A stretch of 45,246 nucleotides of DNA from Synechococcus sp. UW140 (GTDB lineage: Bacteria > Cyanobacteriota > Cyanobacteriia > PCC-6307 > Cyanobiaceae). Shown piece by piece: positions 14,081 to 35,580 of this stretch. A program made the position numbers and the translations under genes. Location of the stretch: positions 1 to 45,246 of the forward strand of contig CAMBZX010000004.1 in the NCBI GenBank assembly GCA_945872185.1, given 5' to 3'. The notes below the pieces were generated by a model. That model did no database searches, was not told the origin of the DNA, and worked only from the letters and a program-made list of their open reading frames with translations. Numbering within the stretch: the stretch's first letter is position 1; every line of letters begins with the position of its first letter.

Positions 14081-14095
14081 GGCGTTGGCGGAGGG

Positions 14096-14503: not shown

Positions 14504-14781
14504 CGGGGTGCTGGTGTCCCAGTCGGTGCGTGACGGGAAGAACCTTGGCCGAACCAAGTCCCATGACGCTGCCCGGGACGCAAGGTCCAAGGGCTGGGCT
14601 GGGAAGCCCGGCATGACCAGGGTGTTCAGCCGGGATCGTACTGGCGACGCAGCCCAGCCAGGGGAAGCTGGCTCTGCGACAACCCACGCGGCCCACAGGC
14701 CGCCCCCCGAGACTCAGACCCGGGATCGGACAGGGACGTCAAGCTTTAAAAATGCGGTCGAGCATCCTGAGGTTGAGCGCT

Positions 14782-14823: not shown

Positions 14824-14964
14824 ACGCTGTAAGGTCGACGGCAGTCCAGCCACGAACAGGTGGTCTGTGCGCATGCTCCTGGCAGCGAGCTACGGCGACT
14901 CCAACAAGACAGCAGTCGGCCACAGGCTTGCAGTGGATCGCGCCCCCCACCCGGCCCGGCAGCG

Positions 14965-16494
14965 ATGGCCATGGTCCTGAAGGGGCGATGGGCCGGGTCG
15001 TATCGATTGGTTTGGTCTGGAATGGTGGCGCTGGCTCTGGTCCAGCCCGGCGCCAGGGGCGCAGTCCGCGAAGAGGTCTCACCCCCAGAACTACGGGAGC
15101 TCCGCAGTCTGCTGGAGGGGAGCCAGCGGGTATCGATGGCAGAAGCAATCAGCTCCACCCTGCGCCACAATCCCTCACTTCAGGCCTCATTCGCCAAGAT
15201 CCAGGCCAGGGCGTGGAACCTGACGGCCAATCGGCGGCGCTGGTGGCCAACGGCGGCGGTGCAGGCCGACCCTGACACGACCATGTTGGGGCAGGTCTTC
15301 GAAACAACCGTAGCCAAGTACCCGAACAGCAGCAGCAGCACTTTTGCAACCAGCACTTATAACAGCAGTTACAGCAATTACAGCAACTATGGCAATGCGT
15401 CGCTGGGGCTGATTCTGAGCTGGAGTTTCTTTGATCCCACGCGACAGCCCGCCATCAACAGTGCCAGCGCCAGCCTCAGCGCCCAGAAATTGACATTTAA
15501 TGCGGTGGCCCGCAGTCTTGTTCTTGATACCCAGATTCTCTACCACACCCTGCAACAAACAGAGCGACTGATCCAGGTTTACGAGAGGATTTTACGTGAG
15601 AATGCAAAGCAGGTGGCGATGATCAATGCCCAGTTGAAAGCCGGTATGACCAACATCGGCGATGTGGCAGAGAAGCGGACACAAATGCTTAACCAGTTGA
15701 CCCATCTGGTCCTGCTCTACCAGCAGCAAACCCACAATGCTTCGAATCTGGCGACCAACATGGGCCTGACTCCCGGCAGTGCGGTGCTGCCTCTGGATCC
15801 GCCCGAGGAGCCGCCCCCCTGGCCCCTCAGCCTGGAGGCCACGATCCAGGAGGGACTGCAATTGCGAGAAGAGATCCAGGCGAGCCTGGCCGAAGCTTCG
15901 GCCTACCAGTGGGATGCACGCCGGCTTGTCAACACCTATCTACCCGTATTGATGCTCACAGGCACAGCCTATGGCTATCGCGGACAGGGAACCTTCGCTG
16001 GCAACGTGGCCCAGGATCCAGCGCCTTACTTCAGCAGACAGCACAGCACGGATGCCAGGCTCGGATTGGGCTTGCGCTGGGATTTCCTTGATGGTGGAAT
16101 CCGCAATGCCGAAGCACGGCAAGCGGATTTCCAGGCCAAAGTGTTCGAGAGTCAGGCCCAAGAGAACCGCCTCAACATAGCCAATCAGGTTCGTCGCAGT
16201 TATATGAGCTATCGGACAGCGAAACTCGCCTTACCTGGGGCAAGCCAAGCCTGTATCGAATCTGAAATAGCGCTAAAAGTAGCGAATAAGCGATACCAAG
16301 TTGGAATCGGCGACATGGCAGACTTGATCCAGGCCACCCAGCTGCTGGCGGAAGCGGCACAGAATCTCAAGGCAATACAGCTGAGTTATAGCAACTCTTT
16401 GGCTGAGCTCTATCGCTATTCAGCTCAATGGCCAGCCAAGCAAAGTGATCAAATTCTACGGGATATTCGCTCGTTTGACGAAGCACAACCATGA
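14965..16494 (+). CDS. Outer membrane efflux protein (TolC/OEP family)
   Basis: Signal peptide-like N-terminus; 'AISSTLRHNPSLQASFAKIQARAWNLTANRRRWWPTAAVQAD', 'LGLGLRWDFLDGGIRNAEARQADFQAKVFESQAQENRLNIANQVRRSYMSY'. Confidence 0.85.
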   Translation: MAMVLKGRWAGSYRLVWSGMVALALVQPGARGAVREEVSPPELRELRSLLEGSQRVSMAEAISSTLRHNPSLQASFAKIQARAWNLTANRRRWWPTAAVQADPDTTMLGQVFETTVAKYPNSSSSTFATSTYNSSYSNYSNYGNASLGLILSWSFFDPTRQPAINSASASLSAQKLTFNAVARSLVLDTQILYHTLQQTERLIQVYERILRENAKQVAMINAQLKAGMTNIGDVAEKRTQMLNQLTHLVLLYQQQTHNASNLATNMGLTPGSAVLPLDPPEEPPPWPLSLEATIQEGLQLREEIQASLAEASAYQWDARRLVNTYLPVLMLTGTAYGYRGQGTFAGNVAQDPAPYFSRQHSTDARLGLGLRWDFLDGGIRNAEARQADFQAKVFESQAQENRLNIANQVRRSYMSYRTAKLALPGASQACIESEIALKVANKRYQVGIGDMADLIQATQLLAEAAQNLKAIQLSYSNSLAELYRYSAQWPAKQSDQILRDIRSFDEAQP

Positions 16495-17897
16495 ATAACA
16501 AAATCGATCCTGCTGAGCCCATTCAAGCCAGGACCTCGCCTGCAGCGGTGAAGCTGTTATCGATACCTTTGCGGTTCTCGATCATCATCAGCTTACTGAT
16601 CAGCCTCTCTGGCATTGCCTGGGCCTGCTTTGCACGAATCCCGATCTATGTCAACGGTATTGCCTACATGCTCAGGCTAGGTGATGTGGACGCAATTGTT
16701 GCCAATGCCGAAGGACGCATTTATTACCAATTTACTGCTTCTCAGTTAATCAGTCAGCCGCTGTTCAAGCGCCTCTACCAAATCACCAAGGATCAAGATG
16801 CAATTGAAAAGTCCGAGGTGCCAGAACTCATCAGAGAACTACTCGCCACCCGTACCAGCGGCCCCAGGCTAGACCTCAATAACACCTATCCAAACATGGT
16901 GCCCCCAGGCCAGGTGCTGGCCTGGATTGACTCTCCCCCCAGCCGTAATCATCTAACTAAAAGTCTTCTTTCCTATAACCAGGAAAGCATTATGCTCACC
17001 AGCAAAAGTGAAGAGCTCAAGAGAATAAGCAATAAGATAAATGCAAAACTGTCAATTCTTAGGCAACAAGTTAAATCAGAAAGCGAGCAACTCGAGAAAA
17101 TCTCAGCCTTACTTGGTACAGGCTATGCCAGTCGCGAAAATGTCCTTAGACAAAAGGCCAGGGTGGACGATGTCCGGACAGCAATCATCTCCCATGCCCA
17201 GGAAATTGCCATTAATTCACATGAGCAAACAGAAAACGAAGTAAATCAGCAAAAGGCGCTGGTTAAGTTGCGCAGTGATCTTCTCGACTATATTGACAAG
17301 TGTTTTTTGTTCGCCAAAAAGCCTCTCTACATTGTCGATCTTAACAGTCCTCAGTTCAGTCTGGTTCATGCCGAAGACACGGTTATGAATGTCTCAGCAG
17401 TCAAGCTCAGCCAGTTACCCGATCACATCCCCGGATATCTGAGCCAGAGAGATGCCCAACAAATCAACACGGACATGGCTGTGCTTGTAACGCCAGTGGG
17501 CATGGATCGCGCCCAATTCGGTGGCATCATGGGCAAGGTCCAGAAAGTCAATAATCTCCCCTCCAACCTCCAGCAGATCGCCGAACGCATCGGCTCAGTG
17601 GCCATCGCCAAGGAGGTGAGCGCCATGATTGAAAATCCTGTGCGCGTTGATTTGATCCTCCAGCGTGATCCCCGTGATCAGGAGCCTAATCATGGCGGGT
17701 TTCGCTGGTCTTCACCGGGTTCGCCACCCTTCCCAATCAGCTCGGGAAATCAACTGAACCTTCAGATCACAGCCCAGCGGGTGTCCCCCATCAGCCTCCT
17801 GATCCCGTTCATCCTTAAGACTTCAGGGGTCAGTCCTCTCAGTCGCTCACCCCATCGCCAGCAAGCAATTGCGCCGAACAGCCAGGGTGCGCCGTGA
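16491..17897 (+). CDS. HlyD-like membrane fusion protein, NHLM bacteriocin-type secretion protein
   Basis: N-terminal TM 'FSIIISLLISLSGIAWACFARIPIYVNGIAYMLRLGDVDAIVANAEGRI', coiled coil, C-terminal beta domain; ATGA overlap with the OEP gene. Confidence 0.75.
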   Translation: MNNKIDPAEPIQARTSPAAVKLLSIPLRFSIIISLLISLSGIAWACFARIPIYVNGIAYMLRLGDVDAIVANAEGRIYYQFTASQLISQPLFKRLYQITKDQDAIEKSEVPELIRELLATRTSGPRLDLNNTYPNMVPPGQVLAWIDSPPSRNHLTKSLLSYNQESIMLTSKSEELKRISNKINAKLSILRQQVKSESEQLEKISALLGTGYASRENVLRQKARVDDVRTAIISHAQEIAINSHEQTENEVNQQKALVKLRSDLLDYIDKCFLFAKKPLYIVDLNSPQFSLVHAEDTVMNVSAVKLSQLPDHIPGYLSQRDAQQINTDMAVLVTPVGMDRAQFGGIMGKVQKVNNLPSNLQQIAERIGSVAIAKEVSAMIENPVRVDLILQRDPRDQEPNHGGFRWSSPGSPPFPISSGNQLNLQITAQRVSPISLLIPFILKTSGVSPLSRSPHRQQAIAPNSQGAP

Positions 17898-20089
17898 TGA
17901 AAGTTCAGCGACTCACCCGCCAGCGTCGAATCAACGCGATTCTGGAATCTGAGCCCAATGAATCCGGTGCTGTCGCCCTCGGCATCATTCTTGCCTTCCA
18001 TGGCCGGCATCTGGGGCTGACAGCCATCAAAAATGACTGTGGCGTCACCCGAGATGGCACCACGCCAGCCAAACTGCTGGCGGCGGCCCGGCTGCATGGC
18101 CTGCAGAGCCAACAGCAGCTGAAGGTGGGGCCGGAGTCACTGCTGGAGCTGGAACGATCCGGCCGTTTGCCGGCGATTGTGCACACCAAGGACAACCGCT
18201 ACATCGTTCTGGTGCGCTGGCGTCGCGATGGCCTGGAGGTGTTCGATACAGCTCGAGGCAGCCTACGGATCCAGCCAGAGCAGCTCCAGGCCGCCGAGAT
18301 CCTGCTGCTGCAGCCCGGTCCAGACTTCCAGCCTCAGGGCACACCCCCCTCGATCTGGACTGTGCTGCTGCGGTTACTACAGCCCCTCAGCGCTGAACTG
18401 GCCCTGCTGACGCTGATCGCCAGCGCCGCTGTTGTCCCCCTGTTGATGATTGCCGGCAGCACCTCCCAGTTCATTGATGGCTTTCTGCAGCAGCAGCGGC
18501 TGTCCTTTGGGCTGCCGATCCTGTGGTTGGTTCTGATGGCGGTGGCACTCTGGCTGCTGCTGAGCCTGTTTCGCAATCTCATGATCAGGCGGGTCAACTA
18601 TGTGTTGACCCGCAGCTTTGCTGCCGACATCTTTGAATATGCCTTCTCAGCCGATTTCCCCTACTACCTTCAACGCAGCAGCTCGGAGCTGGCTGGAAGG
18701 ATGAGCTTTGCCATGTATATTCCCAATCTGGTCGTTAATCGCATTGGATCGGCATGCCTGCAACTGTGGACAGGCGTTCTGCTGATTGTTTTCTCCTCGC
18801 TGATCTCTCCGATCCTGTTCCTGCTGCTGCTGGCAGGATTCATTCTGGCCATAGCCTACAATGTTTGGATTGCACTGAGCCTAGCTGTTAATAACGACAT
18901 CCTTGCGTCAGAAGGCAACCAGGCAGGATCCAAGGGGATTGAAGCAATCGCCAATATTGAGTCAATCAAGTCATCTGGACTGGAACTTAATTTTTTAAGG
19001 GAATTTCAGTGGCATTATCTCGAAGGAATTCGTCAAACACAGATTATTGGTAGACTGGCAATCCGATCGGATCTTTCGGTGAATGGATCCGTCTTCGCGA
19101 TTACGGCCATCCTGCTTGGCGTCGGCGGTTTGCTGATCATCCAAGGCTCCCTGTCATTGGGGGCCCTGCTGGCCTTCCTCTTTCTACAATCACAAATCAA
19201 TAATGCCATATATCAGATTCCAAACATCAGCAATAGTTGGCAGCAGGCGCAAGGTAAGCTGCGCCGCTATCACGACCTCGCGACGGCACCACGTGATCCC
19301 TATCTGAGAGGCTTTTCTCGCTATTCTGATCTGCCACTTGAACGCCAAAAGCTGGTGGGTCGAATTGAGCTTGAGAACGTCAATTATGCGTTTAGCCCTG
19401 TTGATGAGGCTTACATCTGTAATCTCAACATCCAAGTGAATCCGGGGGAGCATCTGGCACTGGTTGGCAGCAGTGGCTCTGGCAAATCAACGATCATCCG
19501 GATGCTTGCTGGTTTTTATCGACCGAGCTCAGGCCATTACCGCATCGCCGGTCGCGAATGGATGACGATTCCGGATCCGACGATCCGCTCCTCCCTCGCC
19601 TATGTGCCCCAAGATGTCTTTGTCTTTAATACTTCATTCGAGGACAACATCAAGCTCTGGCGTCCGGACTGCAGTCACGCCGATGTTGTCAGAGCTGCCA
19701 TGGCTGCCGATCTTCACGATGACATTATGAAATATGGTGAGTCTTATAATGCAATCATGAAAGACAATGGCACCAATCTCAGTGGTGGCCAGCGTCAGCG
19801 ACTGGAAATAGCCCGAGCCTTAATTCATAAGCCCACCATTCTATTGCTGGATGAAGCCACCAGTGCCCTGGACAACAGAACCGAGGAGCATGTGCTGGCT
19901 GCTTTGCGGCGTTTGGGCATCACCGTCATCAGCGTCGCCCACCGTCTCAATGCCGCCAAGCAAAGCGATCAGGTGATTGTGCTGGAGCAGGGCAAGGTGC
20001 TGGAGCAGGGCCCCCCGGACCAGTTGCTGGCCCGCCAGGGTGCCTTTCAGCGTCTGGTGCTGGCCGAAGGCCAGCTGCAGGGGCATTGA
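17894..20089 (+). CDS. NHLM-type ABC exporter with degenerate C39-like peptidase domain (permease/ATPase)
   Basis: N-terminal C39-like 'EPNESGAVALGIILAFHGRHLGLTAIKNDCGVTRDGT'; Walker A 'GSSGSGKST', signature 'LSGGQRQRLEIARAL', Walker B 'ILLLDEATSALD'. Confidence 0.88.
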   Translation: MMKVQRLTRQRRINAILESEPNESGAVALGIILAFHGRHLGLTAIKNDCGVTRDGTTPAKLLAAARLHGLQSQQQLKVGPESLLELERSGRLPAIVHTKDNRYIVLVRWRRDGLEVFDTARGSLRIQPEQLQAAEILLLQPGPDFQPQGTPPSIWTVLLRLLQPLSAELALLTLIASAAVVPLLMIAGSTSQFIDGFLQQQRLSFGLPILWLVLMAVALWLLLSLFRNLMIRRVNYVLTRSFAADIFEYAFSADFPYYLQRSSSELAGRMSFAMYIPNLVVNRIGSACLQLWTGVLLIVFSSLISPILFLLLLAGFILAIAYNVWIALSLAVNNDILASEGNQAGSKGIEAIANIESIKSSGLELNFLREFQWHYLEGIRQTQIIGRLAIRSDLSVNGSVFAITAILLGVGGLLIIQGSLSLGALLAFLFLQSQINNAIYQIPNISNSWQQAQGKLRRYHDLATAPRDPYLRGFSRYSDLPLERQKLVGRIELENVNYAFSPVDEAYICNLNIQVNPGEHLALVGSSGSGKSTIIRMLAGFYRPSSGHYRIAGREWMTIPDPTIRSSLAYVPQDVFVFNTSFEDNIKLWRPDCSHADVVRAAMAADLHDDIMKYGESYNAIMKDNGTNLSGGQRQRLEIARALIHKPTILLLDEATSALDNRTEEHVLAALRRLGITVISVAHRLNAAKQSDQVIVLEQGKVLEQGPPDQLLARQGAFQRLVLAEGQLQGH

Positions 20090-20093
20090 GCTG

Positions 20094-22289
20094 ATGCACC
20101 GACTCCAACCCAGCGCCGATCCACCGCCTGGTCAAGGGCCAGCGCACCAGTTGCTCGGTAGCCTCGATCGCAGCCTGTATCGCCTCAACCGCCAGAGACC
20201 GGCAGAAACGCATGGCGATAGCCGCATCCTGCTGCTCAGCAAGGCCCTCAGGCTCCTCGGTATGACGAGCTACCGGATTCATGCCTATCCGGGGAGCTTT
20301 CTAGATTTGCTGGAGCACAATGATATCTATAATCGAACCATCGCACTCCCCACGAATCTTGAAAAGGGCGAATACCAGCTGCTGATTCTGTTCAGCACCA
20401 GTGATCACACTCCCTATCTGCTCAGCCGCTCTGGCCAACGCAACCAGGTGCTCACCGCGGTGGATGGCCAGGTGGTACCGCTCAGGGGTGGGCTGCCAGC
20501 CCTGCATCACCAGGCCATCGAACTCTATCCGCTGTTGCCGGCAACGCTGCAGGGACCCTGGGATGTGCTGCGCTTCACCTACGGCACGGACATGGCGGCC
20601 ATCGTGGCACTGTTGGCGATCTCGCTGGTTGTGGTGGGATTCAGCCTCTCGATTCCTATCCTCACCAATATTCTTGTTTCGCAAGTTCTGCCCCAAACCG
20701 ACTACACCCTGCTGCTTGAAAGTTTGGTTGTGGTGAGCCTGATCATTATTGCTTCTATCTCTGGTCAATACGTGCAAGGCCTGATGGCCTTGAGACTGGA
20801 AATAATCTCCGATCTACGCCTGCAGACAGCTCTCTGGGACCGGCTCACAAAACTACCACTCCTATTCATTCAGAGTCAGAGCATCGGCGATATCAACTCG
20901 CGCGTCACCGCCATCTATCGCATTCGTAGCCAGATCAATGCAGGCACGCTTAAAAGCCTGCTGTCTGCCCTGTTCTCCCTGGCATTCTTCGTGCTGATGT
21001 TCAGCTACAGCCCCAGGCTTGCTCTCTGGTCTTCAGCGCTTGTTGTCATTGTGTATGCGGCTATTTTCCAGATTGCACGCATCGCCATCTCGATTCAGGA
21101 TGAGATTAACCCCCAGATGGCAAGAATTGCAAACTTCGCCTACCAATCACTTTGCGGCATTGCCCAGGTCCGCACACTCGGATGTGAAGCCTTTGTCCTG
21201 AAGCGCTGGATGATTTTGTTTACGGAGTTCGCAGATGCAAACCTGCGCTCCACCTCCTTTTCCCAGCTCATTGAGCTGGCGACCAATCTGCTGAGCATGG
21301 CTGGCTCTTTGTTGCTCTTTGCGGTTGCGATAATCCAGGTGCTCACATCTCCAGCAGATTTATCTAACCCCTCATCAATCGCTTCCTTCATCGCCTTTTA
21401 TGCGGCTTTCATCGCCTTTTGTGCAGCCGTGTCTTCGGCGACCAGTGCTCTTGCTGACGTGTTCTCCAATGTGATTTCTCTGTGGAAGCGATGTGAGCCT
21501 GTTCTTTATCAACCTGTAGAAAGCGGATATGAACCCGAGGCCATTCACCATGAAGTACAAGGTAACTTCTCGATCTGCGACCTGTCCTTCCAGTTTCCTG
21601 GCAGTAACCACCGAACATTTGTCAATCTCAACTTCGAAGTAAGGGCTGGGTCCTATGTGGCGATCACCGGCCCCAGCGGTGCTGGCAAATCAACATTGTT
21701 GAAGCTGATCACCGGTCTGATGAGTCCCAGCTCTGGCGAAATCCTGGTGGATCACATTCCCCTGCCATTACTGGCAATTCGTGCCTATCGCAGACAACTC
21801 GGCATCGTCATCCAGGATGCGCGCCTCGATAACGGCACCATTTTGAATGTGGTTTTAGGAGGTCGTACAGATGATGAGCCAGCCGTCTGGGCGGCCCTGG
21901 AGCAGGCCTGCATCGCAGCAGAAATACGCAGCATGCCACTTGGACTCCACACCCCCATCCTCAATGGAGGCAGCAACATTTCCGGCGGTCAGCGGCAGCG
22001 CCTGGCCCTGGCCCGCGCCCTGCTACCCCAGCCCAGGGTCTTGCTGCTGGATGAGGCCACCAGTGCCATTGATACCATCTCTCAGCAGCAAATCTCCAAC
22101 ACCATCGATTCTCTCGGGATCACCCGCATTGCCATCGCCCACCGCCTCTCCACCTTGCGCAATGCCAACCAGGTGATCGTCATCGAGAACGGCACCATCT
22201 CTCAACGCGGCAGTTTCCAGGAGTTGCTGGAGCAGGAGGGCTACCTGCGGCGCATGGTGGAGCTGGAAACCCGTAGCGGTGCTGGGTGA
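20094..22289 (+). CDS. Second NHLM-type ABC transporter permease/ATP-binding protein
   Basis: 'GPSGAGKSTLLKLITGL', 'NISGGQRQRLALARALLPQPRVLLLDEATSAID'; distinct N-terminal extension; ATG 20094. Confidence 0.87.
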   Translation: MHRLQPSADPPPGQGPAHQLLGSLDRSLYRLNRQRPAETHGDSRILLLSKALRLLGMTSYRIHAYPGSFLDLLEHNDIYNRTIALPTNLEKGEYQLLILFSTSDHTPYLLSRSGQRNQVLTAVDGQVVPLRGGLPALHHQAIELYPLLPATLQGPWDVLRFTYGTDMAAIVALLAISLVVVGFSLSIPILTNILVSQVLPQTDYTLLLESLVVVSLIIIASISGQYVQGLMALRLEIISDLRLQTALWDRLTKLPLLFIQSQSIGDINSRVTAIYRIRSQINAGTLKSLLSALFSLAFFVLMFSYSPRLALWSSALVVIVYAAIFQIARIAISIQDEINPQMARIANFAYQSLCGIAQVRTLGCEAFVLKRWMILFTEFADANLRSTSFSQLIELATNLLSMAGSLLLFAVAIIQVLTSPADLSNPSSIASFIAFYAAFIAFCAAVSSATSALADVFSNVISLWKRCEPVLYQPVESGYEPEAIHHEVQGNFSICDLSFQFPGSNHRTFVNLNFEVRAGSYVAITGPSGAGKSTLLKLITGLMSPSSGEILVDHIPLPLLAIRAYRRQLGIVIQDARLDNGTILNVVLGGRTDDEPAVWAALEQACIAAEIRSMPLGLHTPILNGGSNISGGQRQRLALARALLPQPRVLLLDEATSAIDTISQQQISNTIDSLGITRIAIAHRLSTLRNANQVIVIENGTISQRGSFQELLEQEGYLRRMVELETRSGAG

Positions 22290-22485: not shown

Positions 22486-23343
22486 TTAGTTCAGATCCTC
22501 AAATCGCTGGGTGAGGCGTGATTTCGCTATCTCGATTGGTGCCACTGGTAATGGCAGTGGTTGGCGCAGTAGGCCGAGCAACACTGGGATGGCCAGGAAG
22601 CTGACGTACACCAGTGCGATCTCAACCACAACGTCAAAGGCTAAGGCCGAAAAGGTGATCAACGATCCGGCTTGCTCATACCCATAGCCCGCGGAATCGA
22701 TCTCGACCCACCGGCCACCGACAGCAACCTGGGTCGATGACCAGACGGTACCGAGGCAAACCATAAAGCCGAACATCATCAGTGTGCGCTGGCGCCAGCG
22801 CTTACGGATAACGTAGAACACGATCACAAGAAGACTTAGGACAGCCAGGGCGAGCAGAGCTCTGGAATCCAAAAGGTTTCGGCGTGATGCTGGCTCCAAG
22901 GCTAGTAAGAACCGACGCGATCTGAACGTTGCCAGGGCAATTGTTCCCAAAACCACCACTCCTGCGATCAATCCACTGATCCGGGTGCTTCGATTCAGGA
23001 TTCTGTCACCGACGAACAAACCGACAACAGCAACGAAGGCCCCTTCCGACATTCCCTGAATGACCCAGGACAGCGTCAGGGAGAGCGGTTGGCCGAACAG
23101 CGAACGTACTGGCATGTCGCGGATGCCTTGAAGCGTCAGGAGGGCTTCGGCGGCAGCCCATAGAAGCGAACCGCACACAAAGACCCACAGGTAATCAAGT
23201 CGGCGCTGCCGACGCCAATCCCATAGCACCATGCCAATTGTGATGAAAGCGATCAGCAGCTTAGGCGTGAAGTCACGTGCGAAGCCAGCACCACGAATGA
23301 TGTAAATAGCAGCAAGATTCATCAGTTCAATATCTGGATACAT
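22486..23343 (-). CDS. Polytopic integral membrane protein, unknown function
   Basis: 285 aa with multiple hydrophobic segments (LLIAFITIGMVLW, LWVFVCGSLLWAAAEAL, LIAGVVVLGTIAL, LLALAVLSLLVIVFYVI, IALVYVSFLAIPVLLGLL). Confidence 0.65.
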   Translation of the reverse strand: MYPDIELMNLAAIYIIRGAGFARDFTPKLLIAFITIGMVLWDWRRQRRLDYLWVFVCGSLLWAAAEALLTLQGIRDMPVRSLFGQPLSLTLSWVIQGMSEGAFVAVVGLFVGDRILNRSTRISGLIAGVVVLGTIALATFRSRRFLLALEPASRRNLLDSRALLALAVLSLLVIVFYVIRKRWRQRTLMMFGFMVCLGTVWSSTQVAVGGRWVEIDSAGYGYEQAGSLITFSALAFDVVVEIALVYVSFLAIPVLLGLLRQPLPLPVAPIEIAKSRLTQRFEDLN

Positions 23344-23848: not shown

Positions 23849-24979
23849 ATGAACGTTGACAGCCGTGCATCGCGATTCGGGTACCAGTTGGGGTTGCTCG
23901 GGTTTACGCGTTTCACGAATGTGCTGAGACTCGCTCCTCTCGCCCCTGCTATCGAGATTCGCTACCTGCCGCTCCTCTTGCTTCTGATCGTTGTGAGCCT
24001 GATCAGCGTTCCTTTACGATTGCTTGAGACGTTGATCTGGGGACGGAGAATCCAACAAGCCAAGATCAATGAGGCGCCGGTGTTCATTTTGGGCCACTGG
24101 CGAAGTGGTACTACATATTTACATAATCTGCTCATCCAGGATTCGACATTTGGCTATGTCAGCATGTACCAGAGTATCGCGCCTGAATGTTCACTGATTG
24201 GTGGCTCATGGCTGCAACAGTTTTTGGCGCGATTGGTGCCATTAAAGCGGCCGATGGATAATATGTGCTGGCCACTTGATGCTCCTCAGGAAGAAGAGTT
24301 TGCCCTATCTAAGATGCTACCATGGGCTTTTTATGTTAGCTTGCTATTCCCAGGCAAGAACCGGGAATTCTTCGCCAAAGCCGTAGAGTTTAAGGATTAT
24401 CAGGATCATCGCTTTCAATCCTTTGCCTGCGCTTATCGCAAGGTGCTGGCCATTGCGACTCTTCGGGCGGGTGGGAAGCAGTTGATTCTTAAAAATCCAA
24501 TTAATACTGCGCGCATCGGGGTGCTTCTTGAGTTATTCCCGAAGGCACGTTTTATACATATTGCCAGAAATCCCTACGAGGTTTTCTCTTCCACATTAGG
24601 ACTCTATCAAAATCTTGGTACACTCACTCGGCTCCAAGCCCTACCACCAGGCCAGGACCGGGAATCGATTGCAGCGATTTACGATTCGATGATGCATCGA
24701 TATTTCACTGATCGCGATTTGATTCCTGAGGGACAACTGGTTGAGGTTCGCTTTGAGGACTTGGAGCGTGACCCTTTAAGGGAGCTTGGAACGATCTACC
24801 AAAAATTAGGATTGCATGGATTTGAATCCAGTCTTTCTTCTTTTCAGAGTTATCTTGAAACGCAGAGCTCTTACATCAAAAATAATCATAAAATTTCGGA
24901 TGCAGATCGAAACTTTGTTAACACTCGCTGGCAGTTCGCATTCCAGCCTCTAGGGTATTCACCTAAGCCTCAGAAGTAG
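23849..24979 (+). CDS. Sulfotransferase family protein
   Basis: PAPS 5'-loop 'PVFILGHWRSGTTYLHNLLIQD', 3'-PB-like 'ARFIHIARNPYEVFSSTLGLYQ', 'VRFEDLERDPLRELGTIYQKLGL'. Confidence 0.88.
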   Translation: MNVDSRASRFGYQLGLLGFTRFTNVLRLAPLAPAIEIRYLPLLLLLIVVSLISVPLRLLETLIWGRRIQQAKINEAPVFILGHWRSGTTYLHNLLIQDSTFGYVSMYQSIAPECSLIGGSWLQQFLARLVPLKRPMDNMCWPLDAPQEEEFALSKMLPWAFYVSLLFPGKNREFFAKAVEFKDYQDHRFQSFACAYRKVLAIATLRAGGKQLILKNPINTARIGVLLELFPKARFIHIARNPYEVFSSTLGLYQNLGTLTRLQALPPGQDRESIAAIYDSMMHRYFTDRDLIPEGQLVEVRFEDLERDPLRELGTIYQKLGLHGFESSLSSFQSYLETQSSYIKNNHKISDADRNFVNTRWQFAFQPLGYSPKPQK

Positions 24980-25093: not shown

Positions 25094-25969
25094 CTAAATT
25101 GCTATTTCATTGGAATTATTGCATGGGACTTTGTGCTTGTCATTGTTTTTCATTGATTCACTGTTAAGCCAATCTGAGGCCAGCATGTTGTTGTCGATCT
25201 GTGCGGGATGAAATCCTGGTCGGAGATAAGACCATGCCGCGTGCAGCAGATGTGGAACAACTAGATTCAGCTCATGGTTTCTACTCCAGCAGGCCAGGAT
25301 GCTTTTGATCGTGATACGAGAATCCTGTCGCATAAGGTGCTGGCTTGCTGACAGCCAAAAGCAAAGGATCTCTCCAGATGCAATTAGCATTCCAGTCCAG
25401 CGTATAAGTAAATTTCCAGAAACATTTTGAAAGACATCATAAGCGACGGATTTGTGCTCAATCTCCTCAGCTGCATGCCAGCGAAACAAGGCTGCCATTG
25501 TTGGATCTGCTTTGTCACCCAGCGAGTGACCTGGCTTGAGAATCCACTCCCCTAGCGATGAAATCAGATGCTCTAATGCTACGGTGATACTGAGGTTTAG
25601 TAGAGGTGATCGTGTTGATTCCATTCTCTTGTAGGCAAGATTCTGGTACCAAGTCAGCCAGGATTCTATTTCGTAGCCTTGTTTGACGAGCATCAACTGA
25701 TATTCTCGATGATGCAAGCTATGGCTAGCTTCTTGGCCAACAAAGCGTTGTACCTGCAGCCTTAGGGCTTGATCATTAGTTGATCGAGAGGCATCGAGAA
25801 TAGTGCGCACAAAAAAGTTTTCACCGTCCGGGATGAAAAGATGCAGTGCATTGACGAAGCAAGTAAGCTCAGGTTCTTTTCCGTACCAATAACGTGGTAC
25901 ATCCTTGAGTGAAAAGTTGGGATGCCGGACAACAGGCAGTCCCGCCAAAGTTTCAGAGTCGCTCTTCAT
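25094..25969 (-). CDS. PF10118-like putative metal-dependent hydrolase (possible diiron helical bundle)
   Basis: 'FVGQEASHSLHHREYQLMLV' and 'FRWHAAEEIEHKSVAYDVFQNVSGN' (ExxH-type motifs). Confidence 0.75.
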   Translation of the reverse strand: MKSDSETLAGLPVVRHPNFSLKDVPRYWYGKEPELTCFVNALHLFIPDGENFFVRTILDASRSTNDQALRLQVQRFVGQEASHSLHHREYQLMLVKQGYEIESWLTWYQNLAYKRMESTRSPLLNLSITVALEHLISSLGEWILKPGHSLGDKADPTMAALFRWHAAEEIEHKSVAYDVFQNVSGNLLIRWTGMLIASGEILCFWLSASQHLMRQDSRITIKSILACWSRNHELNLVVPHLLHAAWSYLRPGFHPAQIDNNMLASDWLNSESMKNNDKHKVPCNNSNEIAI

Positions 25970-26705: not shown

Positions 26706-29700
26706 TTAAAGCGCAGCTAAGGGTGACTGTTGTTGAAGAAGTGCGGCTCCATAGGTCACAAAAAGTTTCTCATACGTCGGACAGCGCACCCCAAGTTCAT
26801 CAAGTGCTGCAACGGTGAGGGCCGAACTGGGTCGTGATCTTTGCCCAATTTGGTTGAGTTCAGGATAGGTGAGTTGCTCAACACCCCAACGGCGAGTGAA
26901 AAATCCACGCATCTCATGAAGTGGATTGCTTGGATTCTTCTCAATCGCCGACAACCATTGCTCCATTGACACTCTTTGCACTGGTGCGCCTTTGTTGGCA
27001 AGTCCACCCATAAGGTCTCTTAGTGAATGTGGCTTGGGATGCTGTAGGTGGAAGCATCGTCCCTGTGACTCTGGCCGCCAGGACAGGGCCGTTACTGCAT
27101 CCGCAACGTAGTCAATGGGAACTAAGTCGAGTTCCCACGACACATCAGGTGCCATACCAAGTTGTAGACATCCTTTTAGCAAGCGATAAAGAAGGTCGTC
27201 TTGATGCCAAACTCCAGTTTGGGAGTGGCCACCAATCAGGGGAGGTCTATAAATCGTGACCGGTAGTCCTTTCAAGCCGGCCTGGGCAACCAAGCGATCA
27301 CTGACCCATTTGGTTTGTGAGTAGCCATTGAAGATTCCTTCCCAGGATCCGATCTCATCAGTTTCAAGGATTTCCTTGTCTCGATATGCCGCCCCTTCGA
27401 AAATGGCTACGCTGGAGATCATCTGGACTGGAATTCCGCCGTGATCAAACGCGATTCGGAGAATGCGACGCGTTCCCTCTACATTGGTTGCAGCCAGCTG
27501 GCTGTAGGTAGCCATTTGGCTGAGATGGGCACCGTTATGAATAATACCCCCGATACCTGTGCCCAAAGCCGCATATTGATCGGCTTCCATGCCGAATCCA
27601 GGTTTGGCCAGGTCTCCGGGGATCGCGATGATACGGCTCTCCCAACCTTCATTCCAAATGCCATAGCGCACCATGTTGGAACGGATACGTTCCAACCCCT
27701 CGCTGGCATCAGCAGAACGGACCAGACAACGGACACGCAACTCTGGCGAACGTTGGAGTTGACCTGCCAGAAGATAGGCACCGAGGAATCCGGATGCTCC
27801 GGTTAATAGGATCTCTTTTCCCGGCATATCTCCTAGGTAATGCCCAGGATTGATGCTCCAATCACCAGGCAAGGTAGCTTCTTGGCCCAGGTCAAGATAC
27901 TTCTTCTGACGTGCCAAGGGATCGATCAGGCCTGCGAGTACGTAGTGACCAAGGCCATCCAATGTTGGATCTCCTGCCAAGGATTCAAGTTCCAGGCTGA
28001 CACCAAGATCTCGTTTAATCATGGCCGCCAATTCAACTGCCATCAATGAGTCAAGGCCGATATGGAAGAGCGATTCTCCTGGATCCAGGGAACTTGGATC
28101 GCTGAGTCCCATTACCCGTGCAAGGTTGGCTTGTAGCAGGCTAACCACAAGGGCATGGTGTTCTGCTTCTGGAGACTCAGCGATTTTATCAAGCAAGACC
28201 TGGCGGCTCTCTGCTGTGTCATCACCTTTACTTGCTTCACATACATTGAGTAAATCTTCGAGTACTCTTGCTTGTCTAGTTGAACTCTGCTCTGAGACTC
28301 GCTGCCAGTTGTTATTGACAACTGCCAGTTGTCCGCCAATGCCTCGCAGGAGAGCGATCTCAAGGGCCTTGAAAGCCTGTGCTGGCTCCAACAATCCCAC
28401 CCCAAAGGCTTCGAATCTCTTTCGATCCCGATCCGAAAGCGAGCCAGCCATGCCGGCTCCCGCCCAGGGACCCCACTGGATGGAGAGATGCAGCCCATCT
28501 GGGCATTCAGGGTCAAGGCTCCTGGCCAAACAGTCTCCATCAAGCGCACCATTAGCGGCGCTATAGCTCACCTGACCAGGAGAGCCCAGCAAGGCAGCCA
28601 TGGAGGAGAAACTCACATAAAAATGATTGCCACTAAGAGCGCGGTGGAGAATCTCCCAACCTCCAAATTTAGGTGAGATAACCCTATGCATGCGCTCCTG
28701 GGTCTGACTGGCGATCAGACCATCATCCAAAATGCCAGCAGCATGAAACACACCGAGGAGTGGCTTGTTTTGTGGGAGGGCTGCTTGTACTTCAGCCAAT
28801 ACTGTAGCTGCTGCAGTTTCCTTCTCACTCACGGCTGCAAAATCGACGGCCAGACATTGGCATTCCACTCCTGCATCCGTTAGGCGAGCCAGGACCTGCC
28901 GGGCGGTGTCCGGTGGGTCACTGGCACCGCGGGCAATGGCTATCAGGGATGTTGCGCCGTGGCTTGCCAGCCATTCCAGTAACTGAAGTCCTAAACCACC
29001 AAATGCTCCAGTCACCAGATAGGTACCCTGCGCTCGAATCACCAACGGCTCCGGCCGCTCGGGTTGGACAATCACGACTTTGCCCACGTGTTTCGCCTGG
29101 GCTATCCAGCGAAAGGCGTCAACGGTCTGATCGATCGTGAAAACCTTCAACGGGATCGGCATCAGCACCCCCTGTTCAAGATCCTTTAGCAATCGAATCA
29201 ACAGATTCCGGATCAGTTGGGGATCGGCAACGGCAACCTCCAGCAGATCAAAGGGTAGGTAGCGGGCGTCGGGTCGCCGCTTCCGGGCCTCTTCGCCAGA
29301 CCAGATCTCGATTTTTCCTAGTTCGACAAAGCGACCGCCTTGAGCAAGGGCCCGAAATCCGGCGTCCACCCACTCGCCTTTAAGGCTATTGAGCACCACA
29401 TCCACTCCCCTGCCTTGCGTGGAGTGCAGTACCGCATCGGCAAAGTCAAGACTTCGGGAATCGAACACCGCCTCAACCCCTTGTTCCAACAAGGCGGCAT
29501 GTTTGGCCTGGCTCGCAGTAGCGAAAATCCTGGCGCCGCGTGATCGGGCGACTTGTAGAGCAGCCTGGCCTACGCCGCCTGCCGCCGCATGAATGAGCAC
29601 GGTTTCACCCACCTGCAGATCGGCCAGAGTTTCCAGGCCATAAAGTGCGGTGAGGAAGACGGTGCTGATACTGGCTCCCAGCTCCGGCGTGATGGTGCTG

Positions 29701-32700
29701 GGTAGTACGACGCAGAGTTCAGAGCGGCAAAGCACATGGCTGGCCAGGCTGCCAACTGCCAGGGCAGCCAGCACACGCTCCCCGAGCAGAGCGGGATCTA
29801 CCCCTGGGCCGATGGCAATCACCCTACCTACGCATTCGCCACCAAAGGGAATTTTTGCGGCGGCGTCGATTCCGAGCTGGGCGCTATACGTAGAAAGTAG
29901 ACCCAGGGCGTTCAGTACATCACGAAAATTGAGACCGGTTGCTTCGACAGCGACCTCCACTTCCCCCGGGCGTGGCTGCTGCTGCGGTAAGGACTGCCAC
30001 ACCAGAGCCTCCAAGCTGCCGCATGCACGGGTGCTGAGTCGGAACCGATCGAGAGTCGCCAAGCGACGCAGTCGTGGAATCTGGAGACGTCCACCGTACC
30101 AGCGTAGACTGGCTTCTATTCTGGCCCCTGCCCAGATCTCACCCCAGGCACTTGCCGTGGGGTGTTCGCAGATCGGTTCTGGTAGATAGAGTTGGGTCCA
30201 GCGATATTGCGGATATTCCAGGGCAGATGTTTTAAATAAACTTTCCAGGGCACCCTGAGCAGCCCCGGCACCATCGAGCAGGAGCCAGATTGGCCTGACC
30301 TGTCCACTCGCTAATTGCTTGATTTGCTGAAGAATCTGACTACATAGCTCTGCAATCGCCCCTGATGAGCGAATGTTGACAAGTGTTGGCCAGATCAGCA
30401 CATCTCCTGCAATGTCCGGCACCACATGATCAAGGCCGATCTCATGTACTTGGAGGTTCTGGGACTCGCACCAGGCTGCGAGCTCAGGCGCAGATTTAAG
30501 CGGGCGCCCTAGCAGAGAGAGCTGATTCTGCGCTGGGTTCAGCTGCATGAGAGTTGTCTCCTCCTGTGCATCAAGATCTATCCAATCGCGATGAATCATC
30601 CAGGAGGCAGGTTCTTCTATTTGCGTGAACTCTTCGTCGATGGGGAACAGCCATTCAAGTGCTTGACGGGGCATGCGACGCAAGCGGAACCCCTCTATCC
30701 AGCCCAATATTGTGCTGCCTGTATGCAACACCAGATCGCATATCACGAAGGCTGGCTCCGAGCTGGAGCGCAATCTCACCTGACAACTGAAATTGTCTGG
30801 CAGCGGCAGGGATTGCAGGTCCATGGCCACCAGCCCAACCGGCAGTAAAAATTGGCCTGCGGTTGAGGTTGGACCAAGAAGTGCCGCAACCGCTTGAAAA
30901 CAACTATCGAGCAACCCGCGATCGCTGCCCCCGGAGGGACGTTCGAGATCTGCCCAGGCGATCTCGCCACTACTCACCAGTTGCTTCAGGCCTCTGAATG
31001 TGGGTCCATAGCAGAGTCCGAAACATTCCAAGGCGGCATAAAAGCCCTCCAGATCGATCGGGGTGAGTTCCGATGGTGGCAGCCCCGGCGCGAACGGTGG
31101 GCTCTCCAGGGCTTCACCGTGGGCGGGAAGCTGGGCCTGGCCATGGCAAACCCAGTTGCAATCCGCAGCTGTTTCACTGTTACTAAAGAAGCGGAGAAAA
31201 GTCGTATCCGCAGCAGGATCTGGATCGAGCTTAAATAAGAGAGAGACTGGCTGATTGCTAAGCTTGAGCGGCCGTGCTAAAGCAAGGTTAATCAGGCGTA
31301 GAGGTAATTTTTCCTGTGACAGAACATCGCAACATTGGTCAATAAAACCTGCTGCGGGAAAAATTACTGTCTCCCGAATGCGATGATCCGTTAGATCAGA
31401 TGGTTTATCCATCGCAATGGTGCGTTTGTAGTGGCGCTCCAGGCTTGGTATGTCTAGAAGTTTTAGCTGCCGAGAAGAATCTGGTCCCGCTCCATCTTTG
31501 GGTTCAGATATTTCTGTAGGATCAGTTTTTGAGGCTGCATTGCCCAGGCCAATATGATCTGTCCAGAGACTGGCGCCAGAAGCCGTACCTTTGCTGGCCC
31601 ACCAAAACTTCTGCCTCTCAAATGGATAGCCTGGCAGTGAGACGAATTGATGCTCGTAGGGCTGATGGAAACTTTGCCAATCGCTGGAATAACCGGAAAC
31701 GTAGAGCTGCCCAAGTGTTGTGAATAGTGTTTTGCAGTCTGACTGGCCAGGTACCAAGCTCGGCAGGAAGGTAAGAGCTGGATCCTCAAGGCATTGGCGC
31801 GCCAGGCCGATCAAGGTTGGTCGCGCGCCGATCTCCAGGAAAACTTGAGCCCCTAAGGCATTGACGCAGTTAATTCCTTGCTCGAATCGCACTGGATTAA
31901 TCACGTGTTCACACCAGTATTCTGGGTGAGCTATTTCTGAACCAGTAACCTTGCCAGTGAGGTTGCTGATTAGAATTTTTGTTGGTGCTGAAAAACTTAT
32001 TTTCCCTAGTTCCTTCTCAAAGCTCGCCAGCATCGGTGCCATGGCAGGAGAGTGGAAGGCATGTGAAACACGTAGTTCGCGCACATCAATCCCAGCGGCT
32101 TGAGCTTTAGCCACCACGCGCTGGATCGATTCAAGTGGACCGGAAACAACAGTGTTTTCAGGTGTATTATACGCAGCTATAGCCACTTCAGGCTCGGTTT
32201 TCAGCCATGGAGCTAGACGTTCCTGAGCACAGAGGATTGCAGCCATGCCGCCATTTGTCGGCAAGGCTTGCATCAGTTGGGAACGAGCAATCACCAGTTG
32301 ACAAGCATCCTCCAGGCTAAACACACCTGCAAGATGGGCCGCCAGGACCTCGCCGATACTATGCCCCAGAAGCAGGTCTGGTGATACACCCCATTCCAGC
32401 CAAAGTTGGCTGATGGCATAGCCAACAGCGAACAGAACTGGTTGGGTGTATCCCGTACTGTCAAGGGGTGAGGTAGCTTTATTTCCGCTCCCATGATTCG
32501 GCTCGATTAGTGTGCGCAATGGTAGGTCCAGATGGGGGTCGAGCAGGGCGCTGACCCTCTCAAAAGCCCTTCTGAAGCTGGGGTGCTCCCGCAGTAGCTC
32601 ACTCGCCATCCCAGGGCTTTGCGAGCCTTGGCCGGTAAATAGCCAGGCGATCTTGCCAGGACGACGGGATGCCAGACCCCGTCGTATTTCTCGTGGCAGT

Positions 32701-34334
32701 GGTGTGCGCTTCTGACTGAGTACCTGTAATTGTTGACTCAGTTCGGCTCGGTCCTTCGCAATACAGACGGCTCGTTCGCGGAAGGTCGTACGTTGCAGGT
32801 TTGTACTGGCGCAGAGATCCTTGATTGATAGACTTGGCTGTTGATCCAGTAGCTGTAGATAACCAGTGGCAAGTGCCGATAGTGCATGGTCTGTTCGTGC
32901 CGATAGTGTCAGCAGATACAGGTTTGGTTGATTGCTGTAGCGCGCAGGCGTTGGCCCGCATGGCTCTGATTCACTTAGCACCGCATGGGCATTCGTTCCG
33001 CCAAAACCAAAAGAACTTACTCCCGCTATCAGCTCATGTTCTGGCAATGGGAATGGCGTCAATTCCGTTTGTACTTTTAATTTCAGGCCCTTAAAGTCGA
33101 TTGAAGGATTCGGGGTCTCAAAATTCAGGCTTGGGGGAATCTGACGTCGCTTGATGCACAGGGCTGTTTTGATCAGTCCTGTGATTCCGGCAGCCGTTTC
33201 GGAATGCCCCAGATTCGTCTTCACTGAGCCGACGTGGCAGGGACTTGATTCGGATCGTCCTTCACCAAAAACGGTGCCAAGAGCTCGCAACTCAATAGGA
33301 TCACCCTGTCGCGTGCCGGTGCCATGGGCTTCCACATACTGTGTGCGAGCAGGGTCGATTCCGGCACTGGCAAAAGCTTTGCGAACACACGCAATCTGGG
33401 CGTCTACGTTTGGCGCTACCATGCCATCGCTACGGCCATCGGAATTGACAGCTGTGCCACGAATCAGCGCATAGATTCGATCTCCATCCTTTAGTGCCTT
33501 TGCATAGGGCTTGAGCAGGACCATGCCAGCACCTTCTGAACGCACATAGCCATTCGCTTTGGCATCAAAGCTTTTGCATCGACCTTCAGGTGAGAGCAGG
33601 CCAGCCTTGCAGAATGTCGTTTGGATTCCAGGATGGATCAAGGCTTGAGCCCCACCCACAAAAGCCATGCTGGATTCGCCGGACCTGAGGCTTTTGCAGG
33701 CTAGGTGAACGGCTACGAGCGAGGATGAGCAGGCAGTATCAACAGTGAGACTTGGACCTTTAAGATCAAAAAAGTAAGACAGACGATTGGCCGCTATACA
33801 TCCTGTATTTCCTGGAAGGACATAGGGCTCATTGTGCGGAGTCGCCCATTCTTCTTCGGATGCCCAGAGTAATGAGCCGTAGTCATTGCTGGAAATACCA
33901 ATGAAAACACCAACGTCCTGATTGCGGATCGCTTCCTGGGGGTAGCCGGCATCTTCCATGGCCCGCCAGGCCACCTCCATGAGCATCCGCTGTTGGGGGT
34001 CCATGCAGATAGCTTCACGCGGCGAGATACCAAAAAAGCTGGCGTCAAATTGATCAATTCCACTGAGGAAGCCTCCATATTTGATGTGCTGAGTATACGG
34101 ATTGCTAGGGTCGGGATGGTAATGGCTGTCAAGTTTCCAGCGAGTGCCCGGGACTTCACTGATTGCAGATTGAGACGAAGCCAGAAACGACCAAAAGTCA
34201 TCAGGCGTATCAATCCCACCCGGCAACCGGCAGCCTATTCCGACAATCGCGATTGCATCAAGGGCCGTTGCGTTGGTATCCGTCGACGGTTCCTGAGTGC
34301 TCACGTTTTCAGTCATGCAGCCAATTTCGATCAT
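26706..34334 (-). CDS. Type I polyketide synthase, single module KS-AT-DH-(psiKR)-ER-KR-ACP with terminal thioester reductase
   Basis: KS 'VDTACSSSLVAVHLA', 'VEAHGTGT', 'KTNLGHSE'; AT 'GHSIGE', 'HAFHS' (malonyl-type); DH 'DHRIRETVIFPAAGFID'/'LLDSCFQ'; ER 'GETVLIHAAAGGVGQAALQVA'; KR 'TYLVTGAFGGLGLQLLEWL', 'AGILDD', 'SYSAANGALD'; ACP 'GLDSLMAVEL'; reductase 'EILLTGASGFLGAYLL', 'YSQTKWVSD'. Confidence 0.95.
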   Translation of the reverse strand: MIEIGCMTENVSTQEPSTDTNATALDAIAIVGIGCRLPGGIDTPDDFWSFLASSQSAISEVPGTRWKLDSHYHPDPSNPYTQHIKYGGFLSGIDQFDASFFGISPREAICMDPQQRMLMEVAWRAMEDAGYPQEAIRNQDVGVFIGISSNDYGSLLWASEEEWATPHNEPYVLPGNTGCIAANRLSYFFDLKGPSLTVDTACSSSLVAVHLACKSLRSGESSMAFVGGAQALIHPGIQTTFCKAGLLSPEGRCKSFDAKANGYVRSEGAGMVLLKPYAKALKDGDRIYALIRGTAVNSDGRSDGMVAPNVDAQIACVRKAFASAGIDPARTQYVEAHGTGTRQGDPIELRALGTVFGEGRSESSPCHVGSVKTNLGHSETAAGITGLIKTALCIKRRQIPPSLNFETPNPSIDFKGLKLKVQTELTPFPLPEHELIAGVSSFGFGGTNAHAVLSESEPCGPTPARYSNQPNLYLLTLSARTDHALSALATGYLQLLDQQPSLSIKDLCASTNLQRTTFRERAVCIAKDRAELSQQLQVLSQKRTPLPREIRRGLASRRPGKIAWLFTGQGSQSPGMASELLREHPSFRRAFERVSALLDPHLDLPLRTLIEPNHGSGNKATSPLDSTGYTQPVLFAVGYAISQLWLEWGVSPDLLLGHSIGEVLAAHLAGVFSLEDACQLVIARSQLMQALPTNGGMAAILCAQERLAPWLKTEPEVAIAAYNTPENTVVSGPLESIQRVVAKAQAAGIDVRELRVSHAFHSPAMAPMLASFEKELGKISFSAPTKILISNLTGKVTGSEIAHPEYWCEHVINPVRFEQGINCVNALGAQVFLEIGARPTLIGLARQCLEDPALTFLPSLVPGQSDCKTLFTTLGQLYVSGYSSDWQSFHQPYEHQFVSLPGYPFERQKFWWASKGTASGASLWTDHIGLGNAASKTDPTEISEPKDGAGPDSSRQLKLLDIPSLERHYKRTIAMDKPSDLTDHRIRETVIFPAAGFIDQCCDVLSQEKLPLRLINLALARPLKLSNQPVSLLFKLDPDPAADTTFLRFFSNSETAADCNWVCHGQAQLPAHGEALESPPFAPGLPPSELTPIDLEGFYAALECFGLCYGPTFRGLKQLVSSGEIAWADLERPSGGSDRGLLDSCFQAVAALLGPTSTAGQFLLPVGLVAMDLQSLPLPDNFSCQVRLRSSSEPAFVICDLVLHTGSTILGWIEGFRLRRMPRQALEWLFPIDEEFTQIEEPASWMIHRDWIDLDAQEETTLMQLNPAQNQLSLLGRPLKSAPELAAWCESQNLQVHEIGLDHVVPDIAGDVLIWPTLVNIRSSGAIAELCSQILQQIKQLASGQVRPIWLLLDGAGAAQGALESLFKTSALEYPQYRWTQLYLPEPICEHPTASAWGEIWAGARIEASLRWYGGRLQIPRLRRLATLDRFRLSTRACGSLEALVWQSLPQQQPRPGEVEVAVEATGLNFRDVLNALGLLSTYSAQLGIDAAAKIPFGGECVGRVIAIGPGVDPALLGERVLAALAVGSLASHVLCRSELCVVLPSTITPELGASISTVFLTALYGLETLADLQVGETVLIHAAAGGVGQAALQVARSRGARIFATASQAKHAALLEQGVEAVFDSRSLDFADAVLHSTQGRGVDVVLNSLKGEWVDAGFRALAQGGRFVELGKIEIWSGEEARKRRPDARYLPFDLLEVAVADPQLIRNLLIRLLKDLEQGVLMPIPLKVFTIDQTVDAFRWIAQAKHVGKVVIVQPERPEPLVIRAQGTYLVTGAFGGLGLQLLEWLASHGATSLIAIARGASDPPDTARQVLARLTDAGVECQCLAVDFAAVSEKETAAATVLAEVQAALPQNKPLLGVFHAAGILDDGLIASQTQERMHRVISPKFGGWEILHRALSGNHFYVSFSSMAALLGSPGQVSYSAANGALDGDCLARSLDPECPDGLHLSIQWGPWAGAGMAGSLSDRDRKRFEAFGVGLLEPAQAFKALEIALLRGIGGQLAVVNNNWQRVSEQSSTRQARVLEDLLNVCEASKGDDTAESRQVLLDKIAESPEAEHHALVVSLLQANLARVMGLSDPSSLDPGESLFHIGLDSLMAVELAAMIKRDLGVSLELESLAGDPTLDGLGHYVLAGLIDPLARQKKYLDLGQEATLPGDWSINPGHYLGDMPGKEILLTGASGFLGAYLLAGQLQRSPELRVRCLVRSADASEGLERIRSNMVRYGIWNEGWESRIIAIPGDLAKPGFGMEADQYAALGTGIGGIIHNGAHLSQMATYSQLAATNVEGTRRILRIAFDHGGIPVQMISSVAIFEGAAYRDKEILETDEIGSWEGIFNGYSQTKWVSDRLVAQAGLKGLPVTIYRPPLIGGHSQTGVWHQDDLLYRLLKGCLQLGMAPDVSWELDLVPIDYVADAVTALSWRPESQGRCFHLQHPKPHSLRDLMGGLANKGAPVQRVSMEQWLSAIEKNPSNPLHEMRGFFTRRWGVEQLTYPELNQIGQRSRPSSALTVAALDELGVRCPTYEKLFVTYGAALLQQQSPLAAL

Positions 34335-34800: not shown

Positions 34801-35580
34801 TCAGATCAGGCGATTGCCGGGTGACTGACTGGCCATCAGGCTCGGCTGCGGCGCTATGGGGGCGTCGTTCTGGTCGGGCAGGGTGTCGAGGCTGAAGCGG
34901 TAACCCTGCTGCCGCATCGTCTCGATGCCACCGCCATCGCCGAGGCCAGCCTGCTCCAGCTTGCGACGCAAGGTGAGCACTTGGGTATCGACGGAGCGGG
35001 GGCCACCACTGAACGGAGGCCAGGCCATGCGCAACAATTCCTGCCGGGTGCGTACCACGCCCGGGGGCATCAGCAAGGCACAGAGCAAGGCGAACTCCCG
35101 TGGGCTGAGCTCCACCGGTTGGTCCCGCAAGGTCACCTGGCGCAATAACAGATGCACTTCCAAGGGGCCGACGCAGACCCGTTCCTGCAGGCCGCTCCCG
35201 CTGCGACGCAAAAGGGTGCGGCAGCGAGCTGCCAACTCTTCGAGGCCAAATGGTTTGCGCAGGACATCGTCGGCGCCGGCATCCAGCAAGGCCACCACCG
35301 GTTCGGAGCCGGAACGGGCCGTGAGCACCATCACCGCACAGTGCAGCTGGCTGGCCAGACGCAGGGCAGAGGTCTCCTCCAGCAGTTCGGCGCTGACCAG
35401 CAGATCAGGGGACTGGTCATGACAGATTTCCACGGCCTCCCGGGCCGTTGCCACCGCTGCCGCGAGGTGGCCGTCCTGGCGGAGCCGCTGGGCGAGCACG
35501 GTGCGCAGAGTGGCATGGGGATCCACAACCAACACACGCTTGGGATGGCCTGAGGATTCGCTCACCGACTGCTGCACCAT
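34801..35580 (-). CDS. OmpR-type response regulator lacking the canonical phosphoacceptor Asp
   Basis: Receiver 'RVLVVDPHATLR...PDLLVSAELLEE...MVLTAR...GADDVLRKPFGLEEL' plus winged-helix 'VELSPREFALLCALLMPPGVVRTRQELLRMAWP...VDTQVLTLRRKLE...RQQGYRF'. Confidence 0.88.
   Translation of the reverse strand: MVQQSVSESSGHPKRVLVVDPHATLRTVLAQRLRQDGHLAAAVATAREAVEICHDQSPDLLVSAELLEETSALRLASQLHCAVMVLTARSGSEPVVALLDAGADDVLRKPFGLEELAARCRTLLRRSGSGLQERVCVGPLEVHLLLRQVTLRDQPVELSPREFALLCALLMPPGVVRTRQELLRMAWPPFSGGPRSVDTQVLTLRRKLEQAGLGDGGGIETMRQQGYRFSLDTLPDQNDAPIAPQPSLMASQSPGNRLI

Follow-up and report, generated by a model that had tools for sequence, protein, structure and literature searches.

The polyketide synthase (PKS) encoded in the window (the whole stretch of 45,246 nucleotides analysed here, from Synechococcus sp. 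UW140) is not a singleton but part of a widespread picocyanobacterial family of PKSs that end in a thioester reductase (R). Within this family the window copy is atypical, being island-borne, without glycosyltransferases, and linked to a PF10118 protein and a sulfotransferase. Judged from its domains and relatives, the enzyme is on balance best read as a stand-alone, iterative, fully reducing and malonyl-using synthase with reductive release, the product of which would be glycosylated in most relatives and oxidised, perhaps also sulfated, in the window variant. An initial annotation of this DNA had described a single fully reducing module with reductive release, and this part stood; its reading as a fused heterocyst glycolipid (Hgl) system did not, and the widespread family and the island setting had been missed.

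The PKS gene was a single open reading frame of 2542 codons, as first annotated, with an ATG start and no internal stops; its minus-strand orientation had not been given before. The features of the window are listed in Table 1. Pfam recovered KS, AT, DH, ER, KR, ACP (PF00550) and NAD_binding_4 (PF07993) in the expected order, and all domains passed the cut-offs except for the N-terminal DH model (PF21089, 26.8 vs 27 bits). Spans from Pfam and NCBIfam were 27–406 for the KS (with an extension to 520), 564–881 for the AT, 966–1226 for the DH, about 1456–1755 for the ER, 1770–1958 for the KR, 2067–2132 for the ACP, and from 2177 onward for the thioester reductase. Residues ~1245–1435 had no match to a Pfam or NCBIfam family model, and this region was assigned as a putative structural ketoreductase (psiKR) because of its position and because the Beta-ketacyl_N and SpnB_Rossmann models matched sister PKSs there; the remainder of the previously claimed order, KS-AT-DH-psiKR-ER-KR-ACP-R, was borne out by the models directly. 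Catalytic motifs were complete in every domain, from the C-H-H of the KS to the reductase (TGASGFLG/S/YSQTK), so that the intactness claimed for KS, AT, ER, KR, ACP and R held and could be extended to the DH (HRIRETVIFP and LLDSCFQ); the ER carried AAAGGVG and the KR GAFGGLG/LDD/S-Y-N. The GHSIG and HAFHS motifs of the AT agreed with the malonyl type proposed earlier, an HAFH-type motif denoting malonyl specificity. The thioester-reductase terminus scored 281 bits against the NCBIfam model TIGR01746 (Thioester-redct; cut-off 213), which together with the intact R motifs backs reductive release. AMP-ligase/FAAL and thioesterase models of Pfam had zero matches on the protein, in line with the reported lack of a loading domain and of a thioesterase. 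An olefin synthase was rejected, as both the FAAL loading part and the sulfotransferase-thioesterase end were missing from the protein, and a PUFA synthase was rejected since the curated PfaA model reached 435 bits vs a cut-off of 1010 and the ACP was single, not tandem.

Table 1. Features of the window, with positions in the 45,246-nucleotide stretch (aa, residues of the PKS).
Feature	Position	Strand	Residues or extent	Basis or remark
Variable island	8896–34798			flanks ~100–400 bp apart in five genus genomes
Exporter cassette	14860–22289	+		outer-membrane efflux protein, NHLM-type HlyD, NHLM-type peptidase ABC, second ABC
Hydrophobic protein, likely membrane	22486–23343	-		homologue in G021 only, among site loci compared
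Sulfotransfer_3 sulfotransferase	23849–24979	+		N-terminal hydrophobic segment; strong match in two genomes only
PF10118 protein, predicted ferritin-like di-metal oxidase	25094–25969	-		downstream of PKS, same strand
PKS gene	26706–34334	-	2542 aa	KS-AT-DH-psiKR-ER-KR-ACP-R; ORF, Pfam, NCBIfam
Thioester reductase	26745–27821	-	aa 2172–2530	Pfam, NCBIfam, PDB match, motif
Acyl carrier protein, GLDSL	27921–28157	-	aa 2060–2138	Pfam, motif
Ketoreductase, B-type LDD, S-Y-N intact	28365–29042	-	aa 1765–1990	Pfam, motif
Enoylreductase	29061–30017	-	aa 1440–1758	Pfam, motif
Putative structural (psi) ketoreductase region	30030–30602	-	aa 1245–1435	inferred from position in sister PKSs
Dehydratase, H(X8)P and D...Q intact	30639–31457	-	aa 960–1232	Pfam, motif
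Acyltransferase, GHSIG and HAFHS, malonyl type	31695–32657	-	aa 560–880	Pfam, motif
Ketosynthase, C-H-H intact	32970–34256	-	aa 27–455	Pfam, motif check
OmpR-type response regulator	34801–35580	-		genus-wide; right edge of island, outside PKS system

In the proposed mechanism, a starter acyl group would load on the KS and be elongated with malonyl units, each beta-keto group being reduced by the KR, dehydrated by the DH and saturated by the ER over several rounds, until the R domain would reduce the thioester with NAD(P)H and set the long saturated chain free as an aldehyde or primary alcohol. We infer malonyl extension, full reduction and release from the sequence, and likewise chain length, tailoring and the choice between aldehyde and alcohol; iteration, which is unreadable from sequence, is probable. 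The matches listed for the window's own genome (86% complete) revealed no further type I PKS, the sole other PKS match being weaker than those listed (about E 1e-29), so that repeated rounds would fall to one module. PPTase-family genes were present. The best full-length relatives among solved and curated proteins included the iterative mycobacterial MAS/Pks2, which resemble the window PKS in their single KS-AT-DH-ER-KR-ACP module and high full-length score, whereas the window PKS has a malonyl-type AT motif and a terminal thioester reductase. In the strongest alternative, the enzyme would extend a FAS-made fatty acyl chain by one or a few reduced C2 units, and so give a slightly longer aldehyde or alcohol. 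The missing loading domain and the presence of one module only would suit such an extender, as would the second module (KS-KR-ACP-R) of the two-protein relatives described below, which probably does one further round; yet a whole reductive set plus R would be costly for one C2 unit, and MAS and Pks2, its closest full-length relatives with this set of domains, work iteratively. Such limited extension is rather unlikely.

Between the window PKS and its homologue in genome G021 (94% identical) the overall dN/dS was 0.17, with values of 0.05–0.14 across KS, AT, DH, ER, ACP and R (KS 0.05, ER 0.06, R 0.10) and higher values only in the KR (0.24) and in the structural region, which was the fastest evolving part (0.48). 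The intact frame and motifs and the low dN/dS mark the window PKS as a genuine gene maintained by purifying selection rather than a product of chance, and a pseudogene was ruled out by the motifs and dN/dS. Its location in a low-GC island found in two genomes only, with the cluster partners missing, could be that of a non-functional passenger of a recent island, but with frame and motifs intact and most catalytic domains so constrained since the split from the G021 copy, this is improbable. Scans for promoters and terminators found no more matches than shuffled sequences did.

Phylogenetic analysis placed both the KS and the R domain of the window PKS inside picocyanobacterial clades. The KS domains of picocyanobacterial R-ended PKSs formed one clade (23 rows, support 100/100), and the KS domains of HglE and HglC, recognised by the hgl gene order in L166–L168, were placed far outside it, with 27–35% identity to the window KS. 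The KS tree therefore ruled out an Hgl-type origin of the KS and contradicted the earlier proposal of a fused HglC/A/B-like system. Among R domains, those of picocyanobacteria (100/100) and those of HglB (100/99) each formed a clade, and the topology test of the two as one clade neither favoured nor rejected it (p-AU 0.508). HglB gave the best identity to the window R outside picocyanobacteria (43–45%), and the nearest solved R domain by sequence was that of MxaA (PDB 4u7w, 238 bits), the closest solved thioester reductase but one from a PKS/NRPS assembly line (myxalamid).

The Hgl PKSs (HglE/HglC/HglA/HglB; PMC11804610) and the R-ended PKSs are nevertheless alike in the reductive release from an ACP-R end, in the lipid logic, and in the glycosyltransferase and ABC export genes found in relatives. 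The window PKS differs from them by its KS of another clade, its single fused protein, the lack of a chain length factor and the in-line cis-AT, and the hgl island order E-(F/G/D)-C-A-B was absent around it on comparison with L166–L168. Descent by fusion from the Hgl system would account for the identity of the R domain to HglB and for the glycosyltransferase and DevBCA-like genes of relatives; set against the distant, strongly supported position of the KS, the missing chain length factor and an R topology test that favours neither side, it is very improbable. Synechococcus, Prochlorococcus and Cyanobium are absent from the text of the 2025 hgl survey (PMC11804610).

The sister of the R-ended KS clade (support 99/96) was a pair of cyanobacterial KS-AT-DH-ER-KR-ACP-aminotransferase proteins (L169:4417-12165 and L053:3674-11833). 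Their terminus, a class I/II aminotransferase (alpha-oxoamine-synthase-like), represents another lipid-type chain termination, and sphingoid-like amino lipids could be their products. The PKS of Xenococcus PCC 7305 has such a sister KS and the same module, KS-AT-DH-psiKR-ER-KR-ACP, but ends in this aminotransferase instead of the R of the window PKS.

Close relatives of the window PKS occurred in 13 of 149 genomes, the window's own counted. The ACP-R part was found in 46 of 400 sampled picocyanobacterial genomes (31 of the 251 good ones; 16 genera), a count that takes in the more distant KS-AT-KR-ACP-R protein of G084. Named carriers were Synechococcus sp. 8F6, Cyanobium sp. T1B-Tous, Synechococcus UW140 MAGs and three Prochlorococcus single-cell genomes. 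Three architectures made up the family. The first was the single protein of the window type; the second, seen in Prochlorococcus and relatives with small genomes (L042–L045, L047, L062–L064), was also a single protein, but lacked the AT and was ~2190 aa long. In the latter, the KS-AT linker joined straight onto the post-AT linker, the AT being gone exactly between them; malonyl must then be supplied in trans, perhaps by FabD. They are a simple example from nature, inside one small family, of how an acyltransferase acting in cis can give way to one acting in trans. The third architecture comprised a fully reducing KS-AT-DH-ER-KR-ACP protein and an AT-less KS-KR-ACP-R protein (L039, L040, L041, L049, L066). 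By established PKS logic, this two-protein form would leave a 3-hydroxyl beside the reduced end, and thus a 1,3-diol; two non-heterocytous cyanobacteria that carry hgl islands are reported to contain C24 1,3-diols and glycosides of these (PMC11804610). A further cyanobacterial family, with proteins of ~1900–2000 aa and the order KS-AT-KR-ACP-R, was also observed (L050, L051, L052, L069, L094, L109, L111), with L109 cut by a contig end.

In most carriers the PKS was flanked by genes for an MFS protein, GT28, GT2, an SRPBCC protein, a membrane/hydrolase protein and a cytochrome P450, and the order MFS-GT28-PKS-GT2-SRPBCC-hydrolase-P450 was kept from Cyanobium to Prochlorococcus. Both glycosyltransferases were of lipid type (GT28/MGDG-synthase-like and GT2/GT21 HpnI-like). 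Gene E of the cluster encoded a membrane protein with an alpha/beta-hydrolase motif (GHSSG), for which the fold search was weak, a lipase being the best match (E 0.006). In the two-protein loci L039 (identical to L067), L041 and L049, a HlyD-FtsX-ABC set, resembling the DevBCA exporter in make-up, took the place of the cluster. Strong GT28 matches were found in 9 of 149 genomes, every one a PKS carrier; chance co-occurrence would be ~1e-11, a figure that ignores kinship between genomes. This restriction of GT28 to PKS carriers and the content of the cluster are the main evidence on the product, and suggest that the clustered PKS of relatives makes a glycolipid. In most relatives, the lipid would probably be hydroxylated by the P450 and glycosylated by the two glycosyltransferases.

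The family probably corresponds to CF-20, which Calteau et al. (2014, PMC4247773) list as a PKS family of unknown product, widespread among picocyanobacteria of marine and fresh waters and conserved in its gene order. The match is by description, as the passages on CF-20 name neither domains nor product, and the window copy stands apart from the conserved cluster (PMC4247773). The literature search, in which selected papers were covered in detail, recognised no product assignment for the R-ended picocyanobacterial PKS family, in keeping with the earlier view that the product is undescribed, and yielded nothing on an iterative thioester-reductase PKS making fatty alcohol in cyanobacteria. Since the R-ended PKS is linked to glycosyltransferases, the product class is directly testable by lipidomics (8F6, T1B-Tous). 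Picocyanobacteria, which rank among the most abundant phototrophs, are commonly described as PKS-poor. A conserved lipid-type PKS cluster extending into Prochlorococcus would mean an overlooked lipid or a possible biomarker.

The setting of the window copy was different. The flanks of the PKS region showed conserved synteny with other genomes of the genus and the named relatives were Synechococcus, Cyanobium and Prochlorococcus, which upheld the claimed picocyanobacterial chromosome; a plasmid origin was rejected, as plasmid records matched at <60% identity only (top matches 32–37%). The PKS lay in a variable island absent from G007, G002, G023, G020 and G025, where the two flanks were almost adjacent. 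The G+C content was 54% for the PKS and 48% for the adjoining segment, against 67–68% for the flanks and 66% for the clustered paralogue, which indicates that the island was acquired horizontally and recently. None of the MFS, GT28, GT2, SRPBCC, hydrolase and P450 genes stood beside the window PKS, and GT28, GT2 and P450 were not found among the matches listed for its genome (86% complete), so that the glycolipid reading of the family may not hold for the window.

Instead, the linked putative di-metal oxidase, and perhaps the sulfotransferase, would act as tailoring enzymes in the window variant. Strong matches to both genes were found in 2 of 42 genus genomes, the two carriers of the window-type PKS, and in none of the 40 others. 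The PF10118 protein had an invariant E/ExxH/E/ExxH set (E50, E80xxH83, E133, E169xxH172) and was modelled as all-helical (mean pLDDT 77), and its fold matches were headed by an R2-like ligand-binding oxidase, followed by other di-metal oxidases; as these matches were weak (best E 0.035), a di-metal oxidase, despite the "predicted hydrolase" name of the family, is only a lead. The protein had no sequence match in PDB, and a literature search for the PF10118 accession met it in a lanthipeptide context. A CylC-type halogenase was rejected, the CylC survey being without picocyanobacterial CylC homologues and without mention of PF10118.

For the window product, a long-chain lipid that is hydroxylated or sulfated can reasonably be hypothesised from the linkage seen in two related genomes, and shared ancestry alone could explain that linkage. 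A specific sulfolipid pathway, in which the PF10118 protein oxidises the fatty alcohol and the sulfotransferase caps it to a long-chain alkyl sulfate, draws on the co-occurrence in both carriers, the location of the two genes in the 48% G+C segment with PF10118 just downstream on the PKS strand, and the intact ligand set with its weak fold matches; with two related genomes only and the sulfotransferase on the opposite strand, it is a tentative proposal. Equally speculative is the broader view that picocyanobacteria, including Prochlorococcus, might make an envelope glycolipid like that of heterocysts through a single-protein PKS that evolved separately and that in some lineages, having lost exactly its AT domain, receives malonyl in trans, the window variant being a mobile form with an oxidised and sulfated head in place of the sugar.

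The exporter cassette, with its NHLM-bacteriocin-type parts, lay in the same island as the PKS. HPPK- and FolB-like genes (folate pathway) lay at 13568–14614 within the variable segment, and a counterpart of this stretch occupied the equivalent position in G015 (L187) and in none of G007, G002, G023, G020 and G025. Genome G021 carried both PKS types, a clustered copy (L037) and one of the window type (L036), and offers a natural comparison of clustered and island PKS for genetics.
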